Source: a virus
Strand: one strand, 5' to 3'
Length of the DNA: 22,292 nt
IMG/VR virus record: IMGVR_UViG_3300032285_000281
Location: 1-22,292 of that record
The translations under genes and the position numbers were made by a program. The notes under the pieces were generated by a model. It ran no database searches and was not told the DNA's origin. It saw only the letters and a list, made by a program, of their open reading frames with translations. Positions 1,576-12,169 of the stretch are shown one piece after another (the first letter of the stretch is position 1; each line of letters begins with the position of its first letter).

Positions 1576-1666
1576 GACTCTGTCCCTATTATTATCCTAT
1601 GTAAGTGCTTACTATCATTGACTCTGTCCCCATTATTGCTTCATTGATGTAAGTGAGTGCTTACTT
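1576..1666. repeat. Two-unit direct repeat with GTAAG...CTTAC dyads
   Basis: Each unit starts with GACTCTGTCCC(T/C)ATTATT (1576-1593 and 1620-1637, 17 of 18 identical, 44 bases apart) and ends with a GTAAG/CTTAC dyad. In unit 1 the dyad is ATGTAAGTGCTTACT (1599-1613). In unit 2 it is ATGTAAGTGAGTGCTTACTT (1647-1666), the same with four added bases. The 20-base unit 2 dyad recurs exactly, inverted, at 9820-9839. Confidence 0.75.
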
Positions 1667-1761
1667 CGCTATAGGGGGGAGGGGGTTGATGTTATAGTAT
1701 AATATTGTGGGAGGCGCTATAGCACACAAAAGAGTAAAATAGGACTTATGCTAATATAGAC

Positions 1762-1908: not shown

Positions 1909-1937
1909 TTGACAAAATCACGAAAGTATGCTAAAAT
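1909..1937 (+). promoter_or_regulatory. Strong sigma70-type promoter for the packaging operon
   Basis: TTGACA at 1909-1914, exactly 17 bases, then TAAAAT at 1932-1937. The upstream flank is A/T-rich. Expected start is near 1944, giving a leader of about 199 bases before terS. It closely resembles the promoter at 9777-9805, including the GC just before the -35. Confidence 0.8.
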
Positions 1938-2142: not shown

Positions 2143-2598
2143 ATGTCTGATGATGTGTCTTCAAACGAAGTGGTTGTTCTTGAAAAAAAGAAACGACCAA
2201 AGATTCGCAGACGAGAAGTGGTTAATGGTAAACCGAAGCGTGGTCGTCCTTCAAACAAGGCAATTGCTAAAAAGAAGAATCCCGGCACACTGGGCAGACC
2301 TCCCGGAGATGCAGCCCGAATAGCCGAGTTTAAAGCAAGACTACTTGCTACTGCTGGTGACAGTGTTATCACCAAGATTATTGAAACAGCACTTGCTGAC
2401 GGACACCCAGCACAGGGTGCAATGTTAAAGTTCTGTGGAGAACGACTGTTACCACTGTCTAGTTTTGAGGCAAAGTCTGGTGGTGGTACTCCGCAGATTA
2501 GTATTAATATTACTGGGATTAATTCACCAACAGTAGAAACTGCAGAAGAAGTAATTGAAAACGATTACACTGATGTAGTCATAAAGGATATAGAATAA
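2143..2598 (+). CDS. terS: Terminase small subunit (putative)
   Basis: 151 residues directly upstream of, and overlapping by one base, the large terminase. The first 50 residues are very basic with AT-hook-like GRP motifs (KKKRPKIRRR, KRGRPSNK, LGRPPGD), suiting a DNA-recognition subunit that marks the packaging start and loads the motor. Residues about 53-100 are predicted helical (AARIAEFKARLLATAG, VITKIIETALADG), and the C-terminus is acidic. Small subunits diverge strongly, so the call rests on position, length and the basic N-terminus rather than a signature. The start is set by AAGGA about ten bases upstream. It is the first gene behind the 1909 promoter and its structured leader. Confidence 0.75.
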   Translation: MSDDVSSNEVVVLEKKKRPKIRRREVVNGKPKRGRPSNKAIAKKKNPGTLGRPPGDAARIAEFKARLLATAGDSVITKIIETALADGHPAQGAMLKFCGERLLPLSSFEAKSGGGTPQISINITGINSPTVETAEEVIENDYTDVVIKDIE

Positions 2599-3857
2599 TG
2601 GCAGATTTGAACTTCAGTCTGCTAAAGTGGCAACAAGAAGTATTTAAAGACACTACTCGCTTTAAGGTTATTGCTGCGGGTCGTCGCTGTGGTAAAAGTA
2701 GATTATCTGCAGTAACCCTATTGATTGAAGGGTTAAATTGTCCTGAAGGCTCAAGTGTGATGTATGTCGCACCAACGCTAGGACAAGCCCGTACAATTAT
2801 CTGGGATTTGTTGATGGACTTAGGTAGACCGATTATTAAGTCTGCTCACATTAACAACTTAGAGATTACTTTAGTTAATGGTCGTAAGATTCTAGTTCGT
2901 GGTGCAGATAATCCTGACTCGCTTCGTGGTGTCAGTTTGACATATCTGGTGATGGACGAGTGTGCGTTTATTAAAGCAGAGATTTGGGAAAAGGTATTAC
3001 GAGCATCTTTGTCTGATAAAAAAGGTAGAGCCATGTTTATTTCTACCCCATCTGGTCGTAATCACTTTTATGACTGGTATCAGTTAGGACAAGCTGGTGA
3101 CGATGAAGAGTGGAAGTCTTGGCACTTTACCACTGCAGATAACGAAACCATTGACCCTAAAGAGATTGAAGCAGCTAAAAGGACATTAAGTTCCTTTGCG
3201 TTTGGACAAGAATATTTGTCTTCCTTTAACAACGCTGGTGCAGGTTTGTTTAAAGAAGAATGGGTTAAGTTCGGAGATGAACCTAAGTCTGGTAGTTGGT
3301 ACATTGCAATTGACTTAGCTGGATTTGAAGAAGTGGCTAAGAACGCTAGTGCCTCTAAGAAAAGATTAGACCAATCCGCTATTGCGTGTGTTAAAGTAAC
3401 CGATGACGGGAAATGGTATGTGGACAAGATTGAAGCAGGTCGTTGGGACATTGAAGAGACAGCGACTAGAATACTTAAAAATATCGCACAGTACGAGCCG
3501 ATGGCTGTAGGGATTGAGCGAGGAGCATTAAAGAACGCTGTATTGCCTTATTTGAGTAACTTGATGCGTCAGCACAATTGCTACGCTCATATCGCTGATT
3601 TAACGCATGGAAATAAGAAAAAAGTAGATAGAGTTATTTGGGCTTTGCAAGGTAGGTTTGAGCATGGTCAAGTGATTCTGAATGCTGAAGGTGACTTTGA
3701 TGAGTTTGTAGACCAGTTGCTAATGTTTCCTACAAATCAAGTTCACGACGATTTACCTGATGCTTTGTCTTACATCGACCAACTAGCCGTAACAACTTAT
3801 GGCTTTGACGATGCTGATGAAGAATATGAATGTATGGATATTATAAGCGGATACTAA
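2598..3857 (+). CDS. terL: Terminase large subunit (packaging ATPase and nuclease)
   Basis: 419 residues, normal for a compact phage TerL. N-terminal ATPase: Walker A AAGRRCGKS at 26-34, Walker B YLVMDE at 116-121 and the coupling motif FISTPSG at 148-154. C-terminal RNase H-like nuclease: YIAIDLA with D239, GIERG with E307 and HDDLPDAL at 383-390, giving the expected acidic metal ligands. It drives DNA into the prohead at the portal and cuts concatemers. ATG overlaps the terS stop in a TAATG junction, so translation is coupled. Next to it lie terS and, after one small gene, the portal. No key residue is missing. Confidence 0.97.
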   Translation: MADLNFSLLKWQQEVFKDTTRFKVIAAGRRCGKSRLSAVTLLIEGLNCPEGSSVMYVAPTLGQARTIIWDLLMDLGRPIIKSAHINNLEITLVNGRKILVRGADNPDSLRGVSLTYLVMDECAFIKAEIWEKVLRASLSDKKGRAMFISTPSGRNHFYDWYQLGQAGDDEEWKSWHFTTADNETIDPKEIEAAKRTLSSFAFGQEYLSSFNNAGAGLFKEEWVKFGDEPKSGSWYIAIDLAGFEEVAKNASASKKRLDQSAIACVKVTDDGKWYVDKIEAGRWDIEETATRILKNIAQYEPMAVGIERGALKNAVLPYLSNLMRQHNCYAHIADLTHGNKKKVDRVIWALQGRFEHGQVILNAEGDFDEFVDQLLMFPTNQVHDDLPDALSYIDQLAVTTYGFDDADEEYECMDIISGY

Positions 3858-4273: not shown

Positions 4274-6331
4274 ATGGCTCAAATGAAAGACAACAACGAA
4301 TCAACTCAGTGGGATGAACCTACTGAATCAGATAAAGAGATTATTGCATTCGTTATTGAACACACTGACTTATGGAGAGACTATCGTGACCAAAACTTCC
4401 TAGATGATTGGGAAGAGTACGAAAGAATCTTTAGAGGTGAGTGGGAAGCTCAGGACCGTACTCGTGAGTCAGAGCGTAGCCGTATTATTTCTCCTGCAAC
4501 TCAGCAAGCTATTGAGACTCGTCACGCAGAAATTATGGAAGCTATCTTCGGTGATGGTGAGTATTTTGACATTGAAGATGACGCTGCTGACGACCAACCA
4601 ATGGATGTTGCCCAGCTTAAGATTCAGTTACAAGAAGATTTAGAAAAACAAAAGGTTCGTAAACAGATTGATCAAATCGAACTGATGGCAGAGATTTATG
4701 GTACTGGTATTGGTGAGATTGTAGTTAAAAAAGATAAAGAGTATATTCCTTCTACTCAGCAAATCCCCGGCTCTACTCAAGCCGCTTATGGTGTTACTGA
4801 GCGTGAATACACTTGCGTTAAACTTAATCCTGTAAATCCTAAGAACTTCCTCATTGACCCTAATTCTTCTACTGTGGAAGATGCACTAGGTTGTGCTGTT
4901 GAGAAGTTTGTGTCTATTCACAAAGTTGTAGAAGGCATGGAAAAGGGTATCTATCGTAAAGTCAACATCAACTATGCTTCTGATGATACTGCACTAGAGC
5001 CAACTCAAGAACTTAAACAGTTCCAAGATGGTAAAGTTCGTCTATTAACTTATTATGGTTTAGTTCCTCGTGAATACATTGAACAGTTGGAAAATTCAGA
5101 TGGTGAAGAAGTTATTGACTTGTTCCCAGATGACTCTGTTGCTGATGATTATGCTGACCTTGTAGAAGCGATTATTGTCATTGCTAACGACTCTATGCTC
5201 CTCAAGGCAGAAAAGTCTCCTTACATGATGAAAGACCGTCCTATCGTTGCGTATCAAGACGATACAGTCCCTAATCGTTTCTGGGGTCGTGGTACTGCTG
5301 AAAAAGCATACAATATGCAAAAGGCTATAGATGCCCAGTTACGCAGTCATTTAGACAGTCTAGCCCTTACCACCTCACCAATGATTGCTATGGACGCTAC
5401 AAGGCTTCCTAGAGGTGCTAAATTTGAAGTTAAACCGGGTAAAGCAATCCTTACCAATGGTGCTCCTTCAGAGATTCTGTTCCCATTTAAGTTCGGTCAG
5501 ACAGACCAGACTAACATTGCTACCTCACAGAACTTTGAGCGTATGCTTTTACAAGCTACTGGTACTGTAGATTCGTCAGGCATGCCTTCACAAGCCCCTC
5601 GTGACGCTGGTACAGGCGGTATGTCTATGGCAATGGCAGGTATTATTAAGAAATACAAGCGTACATTGACCAATTTCCAAGAAGATTTCTTGATTCCGTT
5701 CATTCGTAAGGCTGCATATCGTTATATGCAATTTGACCCTGAGCGTTATCCGTCAAAAGACTACAAGTTTATGCCAACTGCTACCCTTGGTATCATGGCT
5801 CGTGAGCATGAACAGCAGCAATTCATCGCTTTACTGCAAACTTTAGGACCAAATACACCAGTATTGCCAATTATTCTCAAAGGAATCATCGGTAACTCTA
5901 GTTTATCTAACAAAACTGAACTTGCACAAGCATTAGACCAGATGAGTCAGCCTAATCCACAGGTACAACAGCTCCAACAAGCAGAACAACAGCTTAAATT
6001 ACAGGCTGCACAGGCTCAAATCAAGAGTTTGGATGCTTCTGCTGCTAAAGACATGGCTGATGCTCAGAAAACAATGGTTGAGGCTCAATTAGCTCCTAAA
6101 GAGACTGAAGCTAAGGTAATTGCTTCTGTTTCTCGTAATCTGCCACAACAAGGCGACCAAGCAAACGCTGAATTTGATAGAAGAGTGAAGATTGCTGAGT
6201 TAATGTTAAAAGAAGCAGACCTAAAAAACAATACTAAAATTGTTGAAATGCAAATGTTTGATAAGTCTGCTACAATAGGAAAGACTGAAGAAGATTTCTT
6301 AAATAATCTGACTGCAAAGCTCTCTAAATAA
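4274..6331 (+). CDS. Portal (head-to-tail connector) protein
   Basis: 685 residues, in the size range of P22-like portals. The N-terminal half carries features typical of these proteins: YRDYRDQN-like helix with WEEYERIFRGEWE near 40-57, an RSRIISP stretch, IETRHAEIMEAIFG near 80-93, VNPKNFLIDP near 188-198 and GRGTAEKAYNMQKAIDAQLRSHLD near 338-361. The GTVDSSGMPSQAPRDAGTGG loop near 430-449 is followed by long helices. Residues about 560-640 are Gln/Ala/Lys-rich coiled coil, like the barrel of P22 portal. A dodecameric ring at one capsid vertex would bind TerL during packaging and the adaptor afterwards. It sits after terL and before the fibre gene, whose ATG overlaps its stop. Confidence 0.9.
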   Translation: MAQMKDNNESTQWDEPTESDKEIIAFVIEHTDLWRDYRDQNFLDDWEEYERIFRGEWEAQDRTRESERSRIISPATQQAIETRHAEIMEAIFGDGEYFDIEDDAADDQPMDVAQLKIQLQEDLEKQKVRKQIDQIELMAEIYGTGIGEIVVKKDKEYIPSTQQIPGSTQAAYGVTEREYTCVKLNPVNPKNFLIDPNSSTVEDALGCAVEKFVSIHKVVEGMEKGIYRKVNINYASDDTALEPTQELKQFQDGKVRLLTYYGLVPREYIEQLENSDGEEVIDLFPDDSVADDYADLVEAIIVIANDSMLLKAEKSPYMMKDRPIVAYQDDTVPNRFWGRGTAEKAYNMQKAIDAQLRSHLDSLALTTSPMIAMDATRLPRGAKFEVKPGKAILTNGAPSEILFPFKFGQTDQTNIATSQNFERMLLQATGTVDSSGMPSQAPRDAGTGGMSMAMAGIIKKYKRTLTNFQEDFLIPFIRKAAYRYMQFDPERYPSKDYKFMPTATLGIMAREHEQQQFIALLQTLGPNTPVLPIILKGIIGNSSLSNKTELAQALDQMSQPNPQVQQLQQAEQQLKLQAAQAQIKSLDASAAKDMADAQKTMVEAQLAPKETEAKVIASVSRNLPQQGDQANAEFDRRVKIAELMLKEADLKNNTKIVEMQMFDKSATIGKTEEDFLNNLTAKLSK
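4670..4673. other. The only GATC tetranucleotide found in the window
   Basis: The site lies in TTGATCAA inside the portal gene. A line-by-line reading of all 22,292 bases found no other GATC. See the finding on restriction-site avoidance. Confidence 0.8.
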
Positions 6332-9498: not shown

Positions 9499-9768
9499 AT
9501 GGCACTACAACTTAACCTTTCAACAACGCAATTCGGTGTACCTGCACCACAAGCATACGCTAGAATTACTAACTTTTTTGGTACAAAAGACCAAATTCAA
9601 GTCCAAGTAGCTATCTACTATAACGAAGATGCAAGACATGGCAACATGGCTACAGTTAAAGAAAATGCTCATTACATTGCTATTGAGGACTTAAAGGGTG
9701 ATTTAATCCCTGCAATCTATGAAGTGTTAAAGACATTTAGCGATTATGAAGGTGCTATAGACGCATAA
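9499..9768 (+). CDS. Small conserved protein following the tail fibre
   Basis: 89 residues, beginning MALQLNLSTTQFGVPAPQAY, then ARITNFFGTKDQIQVQV and a C-terminal DLIPAIYEVLKTF. I recognise this as a recurrent small protein encoded directly after fibre genes in environmental tailed phages, with an alternating beta pattern in the middle. Its function is unknown. A fibre-associated structural or assembly role is inferred from position. GGAG precedes the ATG by six bases. It is the last gene before the promoter at 9777, so it closes the terminase-portal-fibre transcription unit. No Cys, no membrane segment. Confidence 0.7.
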   Translation: MALQLNLSTTQFGVPAPQAYARITNFFGTKDQIQVQVAIYYNEDARHGNMATVKENAHYIAIEDLKGDLIPAIYEVLKTFSDYEGAIDA

Positions 9769-9776
9769 AAAATAGC

Positions 9777-9805
9777 TTGACTTTTTTATAAAGTTGTGGT
9801 AAAAT
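9777..9805 (+). promoter_or_regulatory. Strong sigma70-type promoter ahead of the scaffold/capsid unit
   Basis: TTGACT at 9777-9782, exactly 17 bases, then TAAAAT at 9800-9805, with an A-tract and GC before the -35 as at 1909. Start near 9812. It lies in the 89-base gap between 9768 and 9858, and the 20-base operator-like element begins about eight bases into the transcript. Confidence 0.8.
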
Positions 9806-9817
9806 ACGGCTATATAA

Positions 9818-9839
9818 GTAAGTAAGCACTCACTTACAT
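9818..9839. promoter_or_regulatory. Operator-like or hairpin element shared with the divergent region
   Basis: AAGTAAGCACTCACTTACAT at 9820-9839 is the exact reverse complement of 1647-1666. Within it, extended by two bases, GTAAGT (9818-9823) and ACTTAC (9832-9837) are six-base arms around an eight-base loop. It lies just downstream of the expected start, so a protein bound there would block elongation. As RNA it would form a hairpin near the 5' end. Confidence 0.65.
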
Positions 9840-9857: not shown

Positions 9858-10109
9858 ATGGATGAAAAACTACAAGCCTATTACGAGGCAAGATTCTCGA
9901 TGATGGCTACAGAAGGTTGGAAAGACCTTATTGAAGACGCTCAAAAGATATTTGACGCTTTGAATAATGTTTTACCAATACAGAATGAATCAGAATTAAA
10001 CCTTAAAAAGGGACAACTTGACATCCTTCAGTGGTTGTTAAGCCTAAAAGGTAGTTCTGAGCAGTCCTATGAGCAGCTCATGTCGGGAGACTCAGCAGAT
10101 GGCTCTTAG
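9858..10109 (+). CDS. Conserved hypothetical phage protein
   Basis: 83 residues, first gene behind the 9777 promoter. The pattern YYEARFSMMATEGWKDLIED, followed by a central NNV segment and KGQLDILQWLLSL, is one I recognise from many phages as a small helical protein near scaffold and capsid genes. No function is known. It is acidic and Trp-containing, with no membrane segment. AAAGGAC nine bases upstream supports the ATG. Its last 11 bases overlap the start of the next gene in another frame, indicating coupled translation. Confidence 0.75.
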   Translation: MDEKLQAYYEARFSMMATEGWKDLIEDAQKIFDALNNVLPIQNESELNLKKGQLDILQWLLSLKGSSEQSYEQLMSGDSADGS

Positions 10110-10335
10110 GGTATTTGATTTCCTCTGTGAGGATAACCATTTACACGAACACTTTGTTAGTTATGAGGTGACAGAAGTATCGTGTGAAACTTGTAGTAAA
10201 CCTGCTTTAAAACAGATTTCAACTCCTAATATCAAACTTGAACCCTACTCTGGCATTTTTGTTGGTGCAGCAGACAAGTGGGCTAGAAACAGAGCTGAGA
10301 AACTGAAACAAGAGCAGAAGCAGAACCAAGCCTAA
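10099..10335 (+). CDS. FmdB-like small zinc-ribbon protein
   Basis: 78 residues from the ATG at 10099. An in-frame ATG at 10069 would add ten residues but lies deep in the preceding gene, whereas MALRVFDFLC is the usual family start and GGGAGA lies ahead of 10099. A likely zinc site is C10, H14 or H16, then C29 and C32 (CETC). Then follow PALKQISTPNIKLEPYSG and a Lys/Gln-rich tail. This matches the FmdB-type regulatory zinc-ribbon family common in phage head modules. Its role there is not known; nucleic-acid binding or assembly assistance are guesses. It overlaps the previous gene by 11 bases and is 68 bases ahead of the scaffold gene. Confidence 0.8.
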   Translation: MALRVFDFLCEDNHLHEHFVSYEVTEVSCETCSKPALKQISTPNIKLEPYSGIFVGAADKWARNRAEKLKQEQKQNQA

Positions 10336-10403: not shown

Positions 10404-11216
10404 ATGGCAGCACAATTGATTGATGATAACGAACTGTTAGATAACCAAAACCAAACAGCCGACGATATTACTGATGAGACTTCTAGTGTACCAGAAGCAA
10501 CCCCAGAAGTAAACGCACCTGTAGAAGAATTACCAGAGAAGTATAAAGGTAAGACTGCTATAGAGATTGCTAAGATGCACCAAGAAGCTGAAAAGCTCAT
10601 TGGCAGACAAGCAAACGAAGTGCATGAAGTTCGAAGTTTGGCAGACCAGTTATTAAAACAGCAACTCGATTCCAACAAGCCAATCGCAGCCCCAATTGAA
10701 GAATCGCTTGAAGAAGACTTTTTTGTAGACCCTAACCGGGCAGTCGCAAGAGCAGTTGAGAAGCACCCTGCTGTAATTGAAGCTAAAAACACAGCAATGG
10801 AATTGAGGAAGAATAAGACGGCAGCACAACTGTCGGCTAAACATCCTGATTTTGGAACTATTGTACAAGATACAGGTTTTCAAGATTGGGTTAAGGCTTC
10901 TCCAGTTCGATTGAATATGTTTGCTAAAGCAGACGCTGAATATGATTTTGATAGTGCAGATGAGTTGTTATCTACTTACAAAGAGATTAAACAAATTCGT
11001 CAAACACAACAAACTCGTAAAACAGATGTTGTAGAAGCAAAAGCTCAAGATGCAGCGATGAAAGCAGCAACTGTTGATGTAGGCGGTACTGGTGAGTCTA
11101 GTAAAAAGGTTTATCGAAGGGCAGACCTTATTAAACTGAGAATGACAGACCCTGACAGGTACATGGCACTTCAAGATGAAATCATGAGTGCTTATGCCCA
11201 AGGACGAGTCAAGTAA
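10404..11216 (+). CDS. Capsid scaffolding protein
   Basis: 270 residues, directly before the major capsid gene, which is the canonical place. The N-terminal 60 residues are acidic and disordered-looking (LIDDNELLDN, DDITDETSS), followed by EKYKGKTAIEIAKMHQEAEKLIG near 44-66 and long helices. The C-terminus (KKVYRRADLIKLRMTDPDRY, then a basic GRVK end) is the recurring scaffold tail that contacts coat protein in podovirus-like phages. It would nucleate prohead assembly and leave before or during packaging. AGGAG lies about eight bases before the ATG. No protease gene is visible nearby, so scaffold exit without cleavage is possible. Confidence 0.88.
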   Translation: MAAQLIDDNELLDNQNQTADDITDETSSVPEATPEVNAPVEELPEKYKGKTAIEIAKMHQEAEKLIGRQANEVHEVRSLADQLLKQQLDSNKPIAAPIEESLEEDFFVDPNRAVARAVEKHPAVIEAKNTAMELRKNKTAAQLSAKHPDFGTIVQDTGFQDWVKASPVRLNMFAKADAEYDFDSADELLSTYKEIKQIRQTQQTRKTDVVEAKAQDAAMKAATVDVGGTGESSKKVYRRADLIKLRMTDPDRYMALQDEIMSAYAQGRVK

Positions 11217-11248: not shown

Positions 11249-12169
11249 ATGGCACTAGGTACAGACCATGTAACGGTCACAACAGCGAATACATTCATCC
11301 CAGAAATCTGGAGTGACGAGATTGCCGCTGCTTACAAAAAATCATTAGTACTAGCTAATCTTGTCAAGAAGATGTCTTTCAAAGGCAAAAAAGGCGATAC
11401 AGTACATATCCCTGTTCCAACTCGTGGTTCAGCATCTGCTAAGTCTGCATCAACTCAAGTAACTTTGATTGCTGCAACTGAGTCAGAAGTAACAGTAACT
11501 ATCGACAAACACTATGAATATAGCCGTTTGATTGAAGATATTGTCGAAGCTCAAGCATTGTCTTCACTGCGTCAGTTCTACACAGACGACGCTGGTTACG
11601 CTTTGGCTAAACAAGTTGACACCAACCTAATTCAATTAGGTCGTATCGCTCAAGGCGGTGCTAATACAGCAGCTTACACTAAGGGTTACATCGGTGGTGA
11701 CGGTTCAACATTGTATGTTGCTGCTTCAAACAACGCTTCTGCATTGACTGATGCTGGTATCCGTCGTGCTATCCAGCGTTTGGATGACAGCGATGTTCCA
11801 ATGGATGGTCGTTATTTCGTTATTCCTCCATCAAGCCGTAATACATTGATGGGCTTGGCTCGTTATACTGAGCAAGCGTTTGTTGGTGAAGTTGGTTCAA
11901 ACAACACCATCCGCAATGGTGAAATCGGTAACTTGTACGGTATGCCTGTATTTGTGTCTTCTAACGCTGACACAACTTCTGGTTCTACTGCAGCTCGTGC
12001 TTGCTTAATGGGTCACAAAGATGGTATCGTACTTGTTGAGCAGATGGGTGTTCGTTCACAGACTCAGTACAAACAAGAGTACCTTGGTACATTGTTCACT
12101 GCAGATACACTCTACGGTGTAAATGAGTTGCGTGACTACGCTACTGTTGCTTTGATTGTTCCAGCTTAA
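11249..12169 (+). CDS. Major capsid protein (HK97-fold coat)
   Basis: 306 residues. The order is N-terminal arm (FIPEIWSDEIAAAYKKSLVLANLV near 16-39), an extended-loop-like segment with PVPTRGSASAK near 56-66, then YSRLIEDIVEAQALSS near 90-105 on the spine helix. Next is an Ala-rich A-domain helix (GIRRAIQRLDDSDVP) with RYFVIPPSSRNTLM, and a beta-rich C-terminus ending ELRDYATVALIVPA. This is the usual layout of HK97-fold coats in podovirus-like phages. Many copies form the icosahedral shell. AAAGGA lies eight bases before the ATG, and a terminator hairpin follows the stop, as expected for a very highly expressed gene. Codon choice looks smoother than in neighbours (many GGT, CGT and GCT), consistent with high expression. 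Confidence 0.93.
   Translation: MALGTDHVTVTTANTFIPEIWSDEIAAAYKKSLVLANLVKKMSFKGKKGDTVHIPVPTRGSASAKSASTQVTLIAATESEVTVTIDKHYEYSRLIEDIVEAQALSSLRQFYTDDAGYALAKQVDTNLIQLGRIAQGGANTAAYTKGYIGGDGSTLYVAASNNASALTDAGIRRAIQRLDDSDVPMDGRYFVIPPSSRNTLMGLARYTEQAFVGEVGSNNTIRNGEIGNLYGMPVFVSSNADTTSGSTAARACLMGHKDGIVLVEQMGVRSQTQYKQEYLGTLFTADTLYGVNELRDYATVALIVPA

Follow-up and report, generated by a model that had tools for sequence, protein, structure and literature searches.

Mycobacteriophage L5 carries stoperators, which are sites dispersed in intergenic DNA and bound by the phage repressor, and other phages make use of host regulators, as with the Spo0A boxes of phi29 and the LexA-controlled CTX and GIL01. Phage proteins such as lambda Kil inhibit the division protein FtsZ. 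SlmA, a TetR-family nucleoid-occlusion protein that keeps bacteria from dividing across their chromosome, has as its target the 12-bp palindrome GTGAGTACTCAC, and in E. coli the SlmA-binding sites (SBSs) lie mostly within genes (PMC3116907). The consensus oligonucleotide SBScons (AAGTAAGTGAGCGCTCACTTACGT) is bound by two SlmA dimers (a 4:1 complex) with a Kd of ~25 nM, and the natural sites SBS17 and SBS12 are bound with Kd values of 190 and 270 nM (PMC4423959). DNA-bound SlmA is the active FtsZ antagonist, and multicopy SBS plasmids combined with mildly raised SlmA cause a lethal division block in E. coli (PMC3573117, PMC4117426), where SlmA amounts to ~300-400 molecules per cell (PMC4726725). 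SlmA can either repress or activate from an SBS placed at a promoter (PMC3573117, PMC5519180), and repression of a reporter was obtained with an SBS inside the promoter (PMC3573117).

The DNA considered here is the record of a freshwater phage of 22,292 bases, analysed at its full length and called the window below. Its gene order is podovirus-like, with large terminase, portal and tail-like genes followed by scaffold-like and capsid-like genes. The left end, on the early side, has an ArdC-like anti-restriction gene (175-1059) and a further leftward ORF (1096-1308), both on the minus strand. On the plus strand follow the putative small terminase gene terS (2143-2598), so assigned from its position and from annotated relatives such as H49, and the large terminase gene terL (2598-3857), which has PHROG matches. 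A promoter, TTGACA-17-TAAAAT, lies upstream of terS (1909-1937, plus strand). The promoter that an earlier note on this DNA had placed at 9777 was confirmed as sigma70-type (9777-9805, TTGACT-17-TAAAAT, plus strand, with TG before the second hexamer), and it controls two ORFs (9858-10109 and 10069-10335), the scaffold-like gene (10404-11216) and the capsid-like gene (11249-12169).

The same note had drawn attention to the 20 bases at 1647-1666 (ATGTAAGTGAGTGCTTACTT), which are indeed the exact reverse complement of 9820-9839 (AAGTAAGCACTCACTTACAT) and form with them the sole exact 20-bp inverted pair in the window. A 20-bp inverted match arose in 5 of 300 window shuffles, a count that includes long palindromes matching themselves, and the estimated expectation for a non-overlapping pair is ~2e-4. 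Both copies are non-coding, the one at 1647 in the 833-bp gap 1309-2142 and the other between ORFs 9499-9768 and 9858-10109, where it covers about +8 to +27 of the promoter. The element at 9820 is real but longer than first given: its dyad frame is 9818-9837 (GTAAGTAAGCACTCACTTAC), and a match to an SlmA-type site (AAGTAAGTAAGCACTCACTTACAT, plus strand) spans 9816-9839, downstream of the scaffold/capsid promoter. The site upstream of terS occupies 1647-1668 on the minus strand, with its 20-bp frame at 1649-1668 (GTAAGTGAGTGCTTACTTCG), and is kept, beside a G-run, in relatives L003, L004, L005, L007, L009, L055 and others. The shorter variant described at 1599-1613 (ATGTAAGTGCTTACT) was also found; framed as 1597-1616 (minus strand), it has a 12-bp core (1601-1612, GTAAGTGCTTAC) that fits GTRAGYRCTYAC, its outer half-sites are poor, and L003 and L004 have the same sequence. 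A weak leftward promoter-like sequence (ATGATA-16-GATAAT, 1591-1618) has this variant between its two hexamers; matches of that kind occur at chance level within the window.

When set against the 24-bp SBScons, 9816-9839 is identical at 21 of 24 positions; the best match anywhere in 300 window shuffles is 18 of 24. The dyad at 9818-9837 agrees at 20 of 20 positions with a viral consensus, GTWAGTRAGYRCTYACTWAC, derived from 211 oriented sites, and the 20-bp core of the SlmA oligonucleotide fits every position of that consensus. The outer bases of the viral consensus were imposed by the search pattern and the inner ones were free; the latter read R-A-G-Y-R-C-T-Y, with the A in 201 and the G in 205 of the 211 sites. 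Cores of the 12-bp SlmA type occur in the window at 9822-9833 (GTAAGCACTCAC) as well as at 1601-1612, and the exact GTGAGTACTCAC is present in viral records G009, G018 and G024. A matrix built from the viral sites, with SBS17 and SBS12 left out, scores these two natural E. coli sites at 18.7 and 13.8, respectively, and among ~700,000 E. coli positions a score of 12 was reached by two and 13 by one. The extended site of 20-24 bp that goes with a dimer of dimers is found in the sequence at 9816-9839. On this sequence agreement, the element is probably a binding site for host SlmA, to be occupied by the SlmA of the phage's real host.

Sites of this type extend well beyond the window. The full 20-mer GTWAGTRAGYACTCACTWAC is present in at least 120 IMG/VR viral contigs with several terminase families, while the same pattern reversed (read backwards) is present in none; a literal search for the E. 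coli consensus 20-mer finds just 2 viral contigs, and its control finds none. With the 16-mer GTAAGCACTCACTTAC, at least 119 loci were found in IMG/VR. Of 236 distinct sites, 230 are intergenic. The half-sites GTNAGT/ACTNAC are separated by spacers of 0, 4 and 8 in 83, 496 and 251 contexts, with no other spacer seen in more than 8 contexts, and the spacer-4 form was absent from the search pattern. Such spacing would arise if two 16-bp dimer sites, shifted by 4 bp from each other, overlapped in the inner 12 bp. Three contexts appear among the matches listed. Arrays of 2-11 sites lie in intergenic DNA upstream of the small/large terminase genes, often adjoining a run such as GGGGGGAGGGGG and facing leftward genes. 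Further sites lie at the scaffold/capsid promoter, which is conserved, and in other phages a site occupies the space from a stop codon to a terminator. The occurrence of near-perfect SlmA sites in many unrelated uncultured phages suggests that phages recruit SlmA. In another phage group (L092, L110, L118, L130, L137, L140) a single dyad lies between a stop codon and the terminator hairpin caccgccttcgggcggttttt, and in the two members whose flanks were read (L118, L137) dyad and hairpin lie where converging genes meet. The dyads were unmatched in cultured relatives and plasmids by short-query BLAST, a search of low power. When exact dyads were ranked de novo, conserved homologous blocks dominated and the ranking was uninformative.

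Relatives keep the promoter that precedes ORF 9858. Of 26 distinct upstream regions from close relatives, 14 have a dyad with at most one mismatch at the corresponding position, where shuffles would give 0.045. These dyads are ~36-48 bases before the start codon and differ in sequence yet keep the consensus (GTAAGTAAGCGCTAAC, GTAAGTGAGTACTTAC, GTTAGTATACGCTAAC and others). The conserved promoter and its dyad variants support the earlier proposal of a protein-binding site in operator position, and the check for conservation at syntenic promoters thus came out in its favor. The site is not essential, since about half of the close relatives do without it. A timing role for it is plausible.

Turning to the DNA upstream of terS, 49 non-redundant regions of this kind (55 kb) contain 37 exact spacer-4 dyads, compared to 1 in 293 kb of downstream DNA and 0.4 in shuffled sequence. 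The same 49 regions are enriched in other motifs: DnaA boxes (TTATCCACA; 35 exact vs 0.8 shuffled, with clusters in 14 of 49 relatives), LexA-like boxes (6 vs 0.2, in the regions of 4 of 49 relatives), NtrC-like sites (16 vs 0.6), sigma54-like sites (11 vs 0.6) and Fur-like sites (14 vs 3.8). For the palindromic motifs other than the dyad, both strands were counted in real and shuffled sequence alike, and because of this, and because some regions are related, the figures are enrichments rather than counts of events. Near-consensus examples upstream of terS are Fur-like (L020, L023, L052, L060, L078, L079), LexA-like (L036, L037), NtrC-like (L017) and sigma54-like (L041, L048, L068). The window itself has a LexA-box-like palindrome (CTGTATAGAATTACAG, 1556-1571, no strand assigned) in the same intergenic region as the 1647 site, and a direct repeat, GACTCTGTCCC(C/T)ATTATT, at 1573-1593 and 1617-1637, which is REP-type-like and has related copies in L009, L024 and L025. 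A cluster of DnaA boxes is absent from the window, where only TTATCCGCA at 1199 was found, with one mismatch; upstream of terS in L015, L022 and L030, exact DnaA boxes (ctgtggataa) stand in tandem next to the G-run and probably mark the phage replication origin.

The run itself (GGGGGGAGGGGG, 1674-1685, plus strand) adjoins the 1647 site, and almost every relative has one in this position. Variants of the form G4-7[A/T]G3-5 were seen in relatives L003-L082, usually ~10 bp or less from an SlmA-type dyad, and a similar run accompanies the arrays of other phage families; a G-quadruplex, an origin and a packaging signal are candidate roles. The phage L333 (MW202483.1, Manatee Spring) has a terL akin to those of the L085 family; in the same place (4700-5150) it carries arrayed copies of another repeat (GTTTACATAAAC), which adjoin a G-rich stretch and are perhaps meant for another host's regulator. 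The region upstream of terS may hold the origin of the phage and also bring together sites for several host factors.

The earlier note had one regulator joining the two regions of the window. The link between the sites holds and proves much wider, reaching at least 120 viral contigs, while the phage regulator that the note implied is not supported: 36 records yielded no TetR gene, the presence of sites is not followed by any phage gene family, and the known target of a host protein, SlmA, agrees with the site. The search of these 36 phage records for the TetR_N domain had a control that was positive in each of 14 genomes. In a set of 32 genomes or large fragments there is no protein family both common and confined to site-bearing genomes, and the widely shared families are structural or replication genes that also occur in site-less genomes. 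On the bacterial side, SlmA (NF007015) scored above the cut-off in 47 of 60 Burkholderiales genomes. With no TetR gene in the 36 records, no tracking family and SlmA common in Burkholderiales, a host factor is the simplest account, and the missing regulator is probably the host's.

Under the best-surviving alternative, a repressor encoded by the phages themselves would bind the sites as operators, in the manner of stoperators in cluster A mycobacteriophages, and its family would have spread by exchange among phages. The arrays upstream of terS, combined with isolated sites far from them at a promoter or next to terminators, do look stoperator-like. Viral contigs are also where the full 20-mer is concentrated, and few chromosomes have it. 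About 85,000 bacterial and archaeal genomes yielded 49 stretches with the 20-mer, scattered over many phyla; a single one of these is an array, on a viral contig (L246) that lies in a beta-proteobacterial bin with slmA. In Burkholderiales chromosomes the strict 12-bp core shows no excess (64, with 91 for the reversed control) and hardly any near-consensus 20-mers occur; near-consensus sites across the class are in modest excess (26 vs 9). Matches to the viral matrix in E. coli, which are few, are not clearly more abundant near oriC than near Ter or with a control matrix. The lack of a core excess in chromosomes leaves room for a non-TetR phage protein. Against a phage repressor stand the missing TetR domain, the lack of any family confined or common to site-bearing genomes, and the identity of the sequence with a known host protein's site. 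Furthermore, the helix-turn-helix proteins tested (the DSL-LC05 repressor C, a DnaA-like protein of MW202483 and one of L089), which came from one site-bearing phage and two relatives without sites, have no homologues across the other site-bearing phages. We therefore consider a phage repressor unlikely. The small terminase, with the motifs as cosB-like sites, was rejected as the binder because phages with unrelated TerS have the same motif.

A second alternative would make the sites iterons at a replication origin, bound by a phage initiator, with the promoter copy as a by-product. The DnaA-box clusters and the universal G-run would suit an origin, but phages of several families, whose terminases differ, have the motif, it is missing from half of the close relatives, and no shared initiator was found among the 32 genomes or large fragments. 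In addition, single promoter copies are kept over 8 kb away with compensating changes, and this explanation is quite improbable. Less probable still is another host TetR regulator with SlmA-like specificity, through which the phage would sense the state of its host. Burkholderiales have more TetR proteins, with weaker similarity to SlmA, and further host-factor-like boxes lie in the same region; to our knowledge, however, SlmA is the only protein with this published target, and its recognition helix is conserved. In three Burkholderiales proteins aligned, that helix (VSEAALYRHF) and T33 are the same as in E. coli SlmA. Chance, or a neutral repeat without function, could appeal to the relatives that lack the site but is contradicted by all counts against shuffles and reversed patterns, which leaves it with almost no probability, and ordinary repeats and chance are excluded.

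Autoregulation of slmA was rejected as confirmation, with the core in only 1 of 40 slmA upstream regions, judged to be chance. Host assignment through terL found no relative in 399 Burkholderiales genomes.

The reading that we favor, and think likely on balance, is that host SlmA sites serve as an operator and also recruit SlmA to phage DNA. SlmA at 9816-9839 would block polymerase until copies of phage DNA outnumber the supply of SlmA. At the E. coli number of SlmA molecules and four of them per site, some tens of phage copies carrying two or three sites each would titrate the protein; expression would then be timed by copy number, with no phage repressor required. The chances that bound SlmA represses this promoter appear about even, and the position of the site at about +8 to +27 would suit repression. 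The terS-upstream sites would draw SlmA onto replicating phage DNA, where it would turn into an active division inhibitor. A division block by phage-borne sites is possible, although we lean against it. F65 and N102 are conserved in the three Burkholderiales SlmA proteins aligned and R73 is not. In E. coli SlmA, FtsZ regulation is lost on an R73D change; the block may therefore not carry over, and it is the weaker reading compared to binding. Still more speculative is a DNA-only takeover cassette upstream of terS in freshwater phages, in which arrays of near-consensus host-regulator sites would titrate or activate these regulators as phage copies multiply. SlmA would come first among them, and one relative or another would add DnaA, LexA, Fur and perhaps NtrC and sigma54; it is equally tentative that non-coding DNA, and not a phage protein, would encode division block and late-gene timing.

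If these proposals are true, FtsZ would be inhibited by carried sites for the cell's own nucleoid-occlusion factor, a takeover by non-coding DNA, and the late switch would be driven by copy number and free of a dedicated regulator. In metagenomes the sites would also serve as a sequence tag of phages whose hosts have SlmA. The open-access library searched yielded no report of phage genomes with SlmA sites; the component pieces are known, and the phage use of SlmA sites appears to be new within that library.

Compared to the systems described at the outset, the phage sites resemble the chromosomal SBSs of E. coli and Vibrio in having a 12-bp palindromic core compatible with GTGAGTACTCAC, a 20-bp frame and a sequence near the consensus oligonucleotide. 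They differ in being intergenic, in lying in arrays and at a promoter, and in being much nearer the consensus than SBS17 and SBS12. SlmA as a transcription regulator, at the V. cholerae chb promoter and in the synthetic Psbs::lacZ, likewise acts from an SBS at a promoter, although at chb it is an activator from -167, whereas the phage site is downstream of the start. The multicopy SBS plasmids present numerous SBSs outside the chromosome, and replicated phage DNA would do likewise (PMC3573117, PMC4117426), but the plasmids are laboratory constructs, used with SlmA raised about fourfold. The L5 stoperators are similarly dispersed, operator-like and intergenic; in the present phages, in contrast, a repressor gene was not found. 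As in phi29, CTX and GIL01, the phage DNA would read a host DNA-binding protein, but the factor here would be a cell-division inhibitor.
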